DNA of 64,000 nucleotides from assembly GCF_009754915.1 (NCBI RefSeq), contig NZ_WPIK01000009.1, positions 1 through 64,000 of the forward strand. Direction: 5' to 3'. The position numbers and the translations under genes were made by a program. Below the pieces are notes generated by a model. It was not told the origin of the DNA, ran no database searches, and saw nothing but the letters and a program-made list of their open reading frames with translations. The stretch's first letter is position 1, and each line of letters begins with the position of its first letter. Shown piece after piece: positions 16,928-18,558 of this stretch. This DNA is from Mucilaginibacter arboris (GTDB lineage Bacteria > Bacteroidota > Bacteroidia > Sphingobacteriales > Sphingobacteriaceae).

Positions 16928-17325
16928 AAAGTAAAGTGTTCTTTTTTAAGAAGATAGTGTATGATAAAGATATATAATTCTTTTAAAAAAAGAAATTATA
17001 ACAAAAATTTGTGCAAATTTTTGTACTATAATTTTTATGGAAAGATTCTGAGAAAATAATAAAAATTTAATAAAAGGTATTTGGCTAATCGGAGACTAAA
17101 AAAAATCAGGCCTTTAAATTTGTCACTCAAAAGCCTGATCATTAAAGTGGAGAATATCGGAGTCGAACCGATGACCTCTTGCATGCCATGCCTAATCTGA
17201 ACTATATAAACATTTTTTAAATTCTATTAAATATATTATTGTCATTATAAGCTACTTACATAACTTTTTTTAAGTTTGTCTATACAAGAAATGTTGGACT
17301 GACTTTTTTAGCCCGACAAATTAAC
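16928..17325. other. Intergenic region with upstream region of wza and left tRNA-derived repeat
   Basis: The left part is the AT-rich leader of the export genes. The middle (17,095-17,191) is a copy of the tRNA-Ala 3' half plus its terminator, listed separately. From 17,192 to 17,325 the sequence is AT-rich and belongs to the islet carrying the DUF1016 gene. Confidence 0.6.
17095..17191 (-). repeat. Left direct repeat: truncated tRNA-Ala 3' half with its terminator
   Basis: This segment matches 18,432-18,528 at a constant offset of 1,337 bp. Positions 17128-17191 are identical to 18465-18528 over 64 nt, covering the tRNA 3' half from the anticodon region to the 3' end and the first terminator arm. 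The rest has a few substitutions. Identity stops at 17192 inside the anticodon stem. This is the arrangement left when an element inserts into a tRNA gene and restores its 3' end, so it is a candidate distal attachment site. Confidence 0.85.
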
Positions 17326-18357
17326 GTGCTGGTTTATAATTTTAAACTGGGTTTAACCGCTTCAGATCAAAACAATTATTTCCTATTACTCGATAACATT
17401 GGCAATACTATTCAGCATGCAAGAATAGAAGCTATTAAAGCTATCAATACTCATTTAGTAAAGGCTAACTGGGAAATCGGCAGGCACATCGTAGAATATG
17501 AGCAGGACGGGAGTGAGCGGGCCGAATACGGAAGCGATTTACTGTCAATTCTTTCTAAAGATTTGAAGTTGAGATATGGCAAGGGATTTGGCAGGCGAAA
17601 CGTTCTGGATATGCGTAGGTTTTATTTGAGCTATCAGAAATGGCAGGCAGTGCCTGCCAAATTGAGCTGGACACATATAGTTATTTTGCTTGGCGTTTCT
17701 GATGTTACCGCACGTAAGTTTTATGAAATTCAATCTGTAAAAGAAAATTGGGGGACACGTGAACTAGAAAGACAAGTGGATGCTGCGTTATTTGAGCGAC
17801 TTGCATTAATAAGTAGAAATAAGGCCAGCATACTTGAGCTGGCTGAAAAAGGCCATGCAGTAACGAATCCAAAGGATATTACTAAAGATCCTTACATATT
17901 GGACTTTTTACAAATAACCCAGGCCTACAGAATAACTGAAAAACAACTTGAACAAAAGATCATCGAAAACTTGCAATTGTTCCTTTTAGAATTAGGTAAA
18001 GGATTTGCATTTATTGCCAGGCAGTATAAAATCTCATTGCGTAATAATCATTTTTATATTGATCTGGTATTTTACCATCGGATATTAAAATGCTTTGTAC
18101 TTATCGATCTTAAAATAAGAAAAGTACAACATAATGATATTGGACAAATGAACCTTTACCTGAATTATTTTAAAAAAGAAGAAAATGTAGAAGGTGATAA
18201 TGAACCTATAGGAATAATTCTATCAGCAGATAAAGATGAAATATTAGTGGAGTATGCGACAGGTGGAATTACCAATAATATTTTCGTTTCTAAATACCAG
18301 CTTTACCTACCGGATAAAGAAGAATTACAAAGAAAAGTAGCTGAATTGATGAAATAA
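17326..18357 (+). CDS. DUF1016 / YhcG-type PD-(D/E)XK nuclease family protein
   Basis: 343-aa protein with the DUF1016 layout. The N-terminal helical domain (about residues 15-165) contains IQHARIEAIKAINTHLVKANWEIGRHIVEYEQ, YGSDLLSILSKDL and GRRNVLDMRRFYLSY. The C-terminal PDDEXK-like domain contains LLELGKGFAFIARQYKISL, NNHFYIDLVFYHRILKCFVLIDLKI and PIGIILSADKDE. The D of FYIDLVFYH and the following DLK are likely active-site residues. The start is GTG. The family is linked to DNA or RNA cleavage and often to mobile or defence loci, but its role is not settled. It is the sole gene of a 1,337-bp unit bracketed by tRNA-Ala repeats. Confidence 0.85.
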   Translation: MLVYNFKLGLTASDQNNYFLLLDNIGNTIQHARIEAIKAINTHLVKANWEIGRHIVEYEQDGSERAEYGSDLLSILSKDLKLRYGKGFGRRNVLDMRRFYLSYQKWQAVPAKLSWTHIVILLGVSDVTARKFYEIQSVKENWGTRELERQVDAALFERLALISRNKASILELAEKGHAVTNPKDITKDPYILDFLQITQAYRITEKQLEQKIIENLQLFLLELGKGFAFIARQYKISLRNNHFYIDLVFYHRILKCFVLIDLKIRKVQHNDIGQMNLYLNYFKKEENVEGDNEPIGIILSADKDEILVEYATGGITNNIFVSKYQLYLPDKEELQRKVAELMK

Positions 18358-18431
18358 AAAATGAACTTATATGATGCCAGTATCTACAAAATTTGTTCTG
18401 CGGGCGTAAAAACATATTGAGCTAATATTAA

Positions 18432-18528
18432 ACTAAAAAAAATCAGGCCTTCAAGTTCATCACCCAAAAGCCTGATCATTAAAGTGGAGAATATCGGAGT
18501 CGAACCGATGACCTCTTGCATGCCATGC
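18432..18528 (-). repeat. Right direct repeat within tRNA-Ala and its terminator
   Basis: This is the partner of the repeat at 17,095-17,191. It contains the terminator and the 3' half of the intact tRNA-Ala gene. The identity break at 18528/18529 falls in the anticodon stem. The pair defines the borders of the DUF1016 islet. Confidence 0.85.
18435..18476 (-). terminator. Rho-independent terminator of tRNA-Ala
   Basis: On the minus strand a hairpin with stem ATCAGGC/GCCTGAT (18442-18448 and 18470-18476), extended by further A-T pairs, is followed by a run of eight T. It lies 8 nt after the tRNA 3' end, so it should end the tRNA transcript. The same hairpin is present at the left repeat. Confidence 0.8.
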
Positions 18529-18558
18529 AAGCGCTCTAGCCAGCTGAGCTAATCCCCC
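18485..18558 (-). tRNA. tRNA-Ala(GGC)
   Basis: Reading the minus strand gives GGGGGATTAGCTCAGC at the 5' end, a seven-base anticodon loop ATGGCAT with anticodon GGC flanked by CTTGC/GCAAG, a T arm with GGTTCGACTCC and the 3' acceptor strand ATTCTCC with discriminator A. The acceptor stem pairs over 7 bp with two G-U pairs. CCA is not encoded. The 3' half is duplicated at 17,150-17,191, making this gene a likely integration target. Confidence 0.96.

Follow-up and report, generated by a model that had tools for sequence, protein, structure and literature searches.

Integrative elements that restore the end of the gene they enter, such as tRNA islands and e14 in icd, code for their own integrase, and each uses a single target. 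Homing needs homology on both sides and leaves no flanking duplication, and the GIY-YIG and PD-(D/E)XK superfamilies both include homing enzymes. To our knowledge, the DUF1016/YhcG family, although very common, has no known function and is listed only as a candidate defense gene. Restriction-modification (R-M) genes are reported to insert with long, variable target duplication (Nobusato et al. 2000, Gene 259:99, cited in PMC3031569), and such insertion is the nearest described phenomenon to the arrangement reported here. Within the open-licence literature (titles and abstracts, and inside PMC4316617), no description of gene-end replacement by DUF1016 genes was found.

Here we analyze a DUF1016/YhcG gene at the tRNA-Ala(GGC) gene of Mucilaginibacter arboris, within a 64-kb stretch of DNA (hereafter the window). 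With a probability of roughly 60%, we consider this gene to be a one-gene mobile unit that entered tRNA-Ala(GGC) and replaced the gene end that it broke.

Results

A DUF1016 gene between direct repeats of a tRNA gene

ARAGORN identified tRNA-Ala(GGC) as the sole tRNA gene of the window; it is intact and on the minus strand, convergent with the nuclease gene. The features of the locus are as follows.

17072-17191, no strand: left copy of a 120-nt direct repeat (repeat search), its inner 64 nt (17128-17191) exact
17097-17140, minus strand: second terminator hairpin and T run, beside the remnant (fold -21.4 kcal/mol)
17147-17191, minus strand: putative remnant (45 nt) left stranded from the original tRNA 3' half, beginning in the anticodon stem-loop
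17326-18357, plus strand: intact gene for a predicted 343-aa PD-(D/E)XK nuclease of the DUF1016/YhcG family (Pfam PF17761 and PF06250, PADLOC PDC-S02, invariant columns, model and fold search)
18409-18528, no strand: right copy of the 120-nt direct repeat (repeat search), its inner 64 nt (18465-18528) exact
18434-18477, minus strand: terminator (hairpin plus T run) belonging to the intact tRNA copy (fold -20.9 kcal/mol)
18484-18528, minus strand: putative restored 3' half of the tRNA, 45 of 45 nt identical to 17147-17191
18484-18558, minus strand: intact tRNA-Ala, anticodon GGC, the target gene (ARAGORN)

The initial annotation had reported 64 identical nucleotides at 17128-17191 and 18465-18528 with an offset of 1,337 bp, and we found this exact repeat at those positions, spanning the tRNA from the anticodon loop to the 3' end. 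Without gaps, the similarity extends to 120 nt with 89% identity (17072-17191 and 18409-18528), so that each repeat copy possesses its own complete terminator hairpin; the repeat had been described as covering the tRNA 3' half, which is correct, and part of the terminator, which understates it because the whole terminator is covered. The repeat is far beyond chance, since a match of this size class was present at 1 of 251 control ORFs in the same flank test. All of the mismatches lie in the outer region (0 in the inner 64 nt and 13 in the outer 56 nt; Fisher p = 2e-5), which indicates that the outer divergence is older than the junction, and this split fits the carried-gene-end history seen at gdhA and tRNA-Lys (below). 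The terminator at 17097-17140 has diverged from the other copy with its pairing kept. The stems of the two terminators show three differences, all pair-preserving, and we discarded compensatory change as a line of argument because three differences are too few to count as a test.

Because tRNA-Ala lies on the minus strand, the right copy corresponds to the restored 3' half and the left copy to the stranded remnant. By analogy with gdhA and tRNA-Lys, the restored 3' half at 18484-18528 probably came with the insert, and the left copy would be the host's. The DUF1016 gene is the only gene between the repeats, where neither an integrase nor a transposase gene was present, in line with the initial annotation of a single DUF1016 gene without an integrase; both of its Pfam domains were matched. 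The non-coding sequence flanking the gene within the islet was not common to relatives. We rejected a transposon or insertion sequence, given the lack of a transposase between the repeats and of conserved terminal sequences. A search of the source genome for further copies of the repeat, as the initial annotation had proposed, returned no third copy with a 106-nt repeat query, nor any third copy of the tRNA.

The DUF1016/YhcG protein as a predicted nuclease

The 343-residue product of the islet gene exceeded the Pfam cut-offs for both DUF1016 domains, PF17761 (DUF1016_N, 146.6 bits) and PF06250 (YhcG_C, 199.2 bits), with E-values for the two domains of 4.5e-59 and 6.5e-43, and it matched the PADLOC profile PDC-S02 across the whole protein (residues 15-340, E 2.3e-132). 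The YhcG catalytic motif has been described as E-D-E(I/L/V)K (PMC1189080). The corresponding predicted catalytic residues, E222, D246, and D261-L-K263, in which D replaces the third acid, were invariant in 26 sequences, and across 174 DUF1016 sequences the conservation was 98% for E222, 99% for D246, and 100% for K263. The C-terminal part was modeled as helix-strands-helix-strand in a moderate model (mean pLDDT 67.7); the top fold match was NucS/EndoMS (probability 1.00, E 1.4e-3), with a TM score of 0.2-0.3 on that pLDDT 67.7 model. No sequence relatives were found in the PDB. As a PDC-S02 candidate defense gene, the payload may also repay its host through a predicted anti-phage role.

The same site in relatives

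Two congeners (G001 and G002) possess tRNA-Ala with no DUF1016 gene there, and within the 19 kb inspected each has the tRNA 3' half in one copy only, with no insert. Examination of related strains for an empty site had been proposed in the initial annotation; its view of an insertion in tRNA-Ala with the 3' end restored agrees with these genomes and with the intact tRNA and 45-nt remnant of the window, and the observation that it had named as its refutation, the 1.3-kb unit in every relative at this position, was not made in the two congeners. The right flank is common to the window and both congeners (tRNA-Ala, a small ORF, an Endonuclease_NS gene, and an L,D-transpeptidase gene), at ~75% DNA identity. 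The left flank of tRNA-Ala differs in all three genomes, so that the comparison holds for the right side and the window does not have a two-sided empty allele. On the exopolysaccharide side of the tRNA (window 1-17000), neither congener shared the window's genes and other genes were present.

The closest homologue found, in Mucilaginibacter aquaedulcis (L081), is 85% identical and lies in an unrelated context. Proteins of 75-79% identity occur in Chryseobacterium and Sphingobacterium, and among full-length DUF1016 matches in the two congeners the highest identity is 41%; close homologues in other genera, together with such distant ones in these two congeners, indicate by sequence comparison that the DUF1016 gene was likely acquired horizontally. 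Homologues with 79% and 70% identity to the window protein adjoin tRNA-Lys and a kinase-like gene. For two close homologues of ~70% identity from different genera (L098 and L101), a YrdC/Sua5-like gene lies no more than two genes upstream and may be a target common to both.

The same tRNA-Ala carries other cargo in other genomes, a possibility raised in the initial annotation. G003, a relative within the family, has a 24.6-kb island (G003:C56:57380-82108; L072, L073) that includes a tyrosine recombinase and is bounded by tRNA-Ala on one side and by 46 nt repeated from the tRNA 3' half on the other; small GIY-YIG islets occupy this tRNA in G020 and G073. The islet could accordingly be the product of a tyrosine recombinase acting in trans, or what remains of a larger tRNA-Ala island after loss of its integrase, with the repeats representing attL and attR. 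The break in repeat identity within the anticodon stem-loop, to which the initial annotation had drawn attention, is real and would suit such an enzyme; the 46-nt repeat of G003 has an inner boundary identical to that of the window repeat, G007 contains a similar 44-nt copy of the tRNA-Ala 3' half, and the DUF1016 gene of L081 is 0.3 kb from a tyrosine integrase. Against this origin, the islet itself has no integrase, its non-coding ends are not conserved with relatives, and the integrase and DUF1016 pair of L081 is without bounding flank repeats. The wider survey of DUF1016 genes bears on the question further.

Recurrence of flank repeats at DUF1016 genes

We compared the 600 bp on either side of 174 non-redundant DUF1016 genes for direct repeats, using a sample weighted to Bacteroidota and close homologues. 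Genes with a repeat score of at least 20 were considered repeat-flanked, and 167 genes had adequate flanks. Flank repeats were detected at 26 of these 167 genes compared with 1 of 251 control ORFs (Fisher p = 2e-10); the other 84% of the sampled genes had none. The repeats ranged from 24 to 215 nt, and we read them as covering the end of an intact neighboring gene at 19 of the 26 repeat-flanked loci, some of the 26 (such as L118, L154, L182, L234, and L236) being possible dispersed or internal repeats. Among the targets were protein genes, entered at the 3' end or at the 5' end, and also two tRNAs. Pfam or ARAGORN confirmed a formyl transferase (purN-like), a class II tRNA synthetase (asnS-like), pheT, and tRNA-Lys; the names gdhA, histidine kinase, and cysG come from sequence reading. 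Just two sampled loci are at tRNAs and most targets are protein genes, and we rejected the idea of DUF1016 as a dedicated tRNA islet. No mismatch gradient pointing to a fixed crossover point was seen along the repeats in the 19 cases (49 versus 57).

A tyrosine integrase was detected near ~6 of the DUF1016 loci examined and near none of the repeat-flanked ones, most loci spanning only ~1.3 kb on either side. This distribution, like the widely varying repeats and their position at either end of unrelated protein genes, speaks against a tyrosine recombinase. We regard integration in trans as possible for the tRNA-Ala islet and unlikely for the DUF1016 class as a whole, and overall as an improbable account. 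The initial annotation's idea of a larger island once linked to the exopolysaccharide locus also finds no support here; DUF1016 genes stand alone at gene ends in many genomes, and tyrosine integrases were rarely detected nearby.

Among other DUF1016 loci, yhcG of Escherichia coli adjoins nanQ and lacks flank repeats in the four genomes inspected, and the DUF1016 gene of an IncHI2 plasmid record had no match in E. coli. At L182 (184-2696), three copies of a ~190-nt repeat lie between and around two tandem DUF1016 genes, as if one site had been used twice.

Divergence of the repeat copies and an empty allele

The coding repeat copies differ at 65 synonymous versus 30 non-synonymous positions (68% synonymous), with a raw dN/dS of 0.125 (p = 9e-23 against site counts). 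This bias indicates that a functional gene end arrived as part of the incoming DNA; a copy that was dead after duplication would be expected to accumulate mostly non-synonymous changes, so the observed ratio argues against duplication on the spot. The terminators give a similar picture. In the gdhA case, the terminator after the intact gene differs from the one beside the remnant, and a sibling genome shows that the remnant's terminator is the host's and that of the intact gene is foreign; the terminators of the two copies likewise differ in the tRNA-Lys case of Sphingobacterium paludis. The 65:30 bias and the different terminators both argue against a host origin for the two repeat copies together.

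In G187 and G300, which belong to another genus, a DUF1016 insert adjoins an 85-nt 5' gene end that is present twice. The empty allele in G324 (L361) has the uninterrupted gene in one copy and is 99% identical to G187 and G300 on both sides, so the DUF1016 gene and its carried gene end enter or leave as one unit. A precise empty allele of the sort used to recognize target duplication is provided by this comparison of G187/G300 with G324, the window being comparable on its right side only. That allele, and the long and variable direct repeats around a nuclease gene, would also be expected from a simple long target-site duplication by staggered cut and fill-in, the mechanism originally put forward for R-M genes. 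Copies born identical in this way should differ mostly by random change in the dead copy, which disagrees with the 68% synonymous differences, and they should not have the different terminators observed at gdhA and tRNA-Lys. We consider such a duplication very improbable.

Similar architecture in other gene families

The same flank test was applied to three other gene families and identified repeats at 7 of 30 RhuM, 1 of 26 Fic, and 0 of 29 AlbA_2 loci; the single high-scoring Fic locus (L273) resembles a general repeat. RhuM (PF13310) loci with long direct repeats include L280, L281, L289, L284, and L287, and several of the repeats are duplicated ends of neighboring genes. We know of no evidence that RhuM proteins are nucleases.

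Small GIY-YIG genes (~90 aa) lie directly at tRNA 3' ends in most of 30 loci fetched (L310-L339), adjoining tRNAs for Ala, Val, Gln, Asn, Leu, Ser, Asp, and Arg, and the tRNA 3' end or terminator recurs beyond the GIY-YIG gene in about 14 of 28 loci; examples are L070 (8607-9406), L071 (8724-9146), L322, and L330. At 8110-8570 of L070, 112-bp units that derive from tRNA-Ala are repeated in tandem and bear short hairpins (TCCCGA..TCGGGA) at the anticodon and D-loop positions, and G073 has a similar hairpin-bearing fragment. No relevant description of GIY-YIG genes at tRNA genes was found in the open-licence literature.

These families bear on a passive route, in which a DUF1016 gene that sat beside a gene in some donor was taken up and joined to the host by homologous recombination on one side and an illegitimate joint on the other, the nuclease being uninvolved. 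Such a route would account for the same architecture at RhuM genes, for synonymous divergence (donor gene ends having come along), for the lack of conserved element ends, and for the wide variation in repeat length. It would also be expected to operate at similar rates elsewhere, whereas the Fic and AlbA_2 genes and the control ORFs (1 of 251) gave almost no repeats, and GIY-YIG genes, a nuclease family of a different fold, behave alike at the same tRNA-Ala. We view passive spread as doubtful, with better prospects than recombinase action in trans.

Discussion

We favor the interpretation that the DUF1016/YhcG gene entered tRNA-Ala(GGC) together with a replacement for the gene end. Recombination inside the tRNA gene would have let the unit in, its own tRNA 3' half and terminator would now complete tRNA-Ala, and the host's original 3' half and terminator would have been displaced by 1,337 bp as the remnant. 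A crossover in the carried gene-end homology would yield, in order, the completed target, the nuclease gene, and the host's end as a remnant. The unit would spread by recombination within the gene-end homology that it carries along, and the carried gene end would keep the target functional, so that insertion should cost the host little.

It is conceivable, and we suggest it tentatively, that the event was started or stimulated by the unit's own predicted PD-(D/E)XK nuclease cutting the empty gene end. What makes such a cut appealing is that small GIY-YIG genes, whose nucleases have a different fold, behave likewise at tRNA 3' ends; the same pattern at 7 of 30 RhuM loci cautions that something other than nuclease activity could be responsible. 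More speculatively still, DUF1016, the tRNA-end GIY-YIG genes, and perhaps RhuM may form a class of one-gene, self-sufficient elements that occur in Bacteroidota as well as in other prokaryotes and that cut a gene end, carry a spare, and insert by repair, leaving the host gene intact. With equal reserve, that class might represent a homing-like lifestyle based on gene-end replacement, without an integrase or transposase.

The locus looks like one example of a type of one-gene mobile unit that is widespread and has attracted little attention. Its mobility signature links DUF1016/YhcG to a concrete and testable behavior, namely entering gene ends and supplying the replacement piece. If the GIY-YIG and RhuM genes are alike in this respect, integrase-free gene-end replacement would be a general route of spread for small nuclease or defense genes, and if true it would explain single genes beside tRNA and housekeeping genes.

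Several known systems share some of these properties. The window protein matches the profiles of PADLOC PDC-S02 and the YhcG family over its whole length, but PADLOC describes a candidate defense gene, and the papers found do not describe gene-end replacement. Like free-standing homing endonucleases, the DUF1016 unit is a one-gene selfish unit with a predicted nuclease of a superfamily that includes homing enzymes; unlike them, it has a remnant on one side. As in tRNA islands and e14, the element carries the end of its target gene, the gene is functional, and a remnant lies at the far side, whereas the DUF1016 unit is ~1.3 kb with no integrase and related units occur at many different genes. 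The likeness to R-M insertion, as cited in PMC3031569, lies in a nuclease unit without a transposase or integrase, long and variable host repeats, and comparison with an empty allele. In contrast to those R-M insertions, the DUF1016 unit consists of one gene with no methyltransferase, its repeats are mostly the ends of intact genes, including tRNAs, and the repeat copies differ mainly at synonymous positions, which suggests that the gene end arrived with the unit and did not arise by duplication in place.
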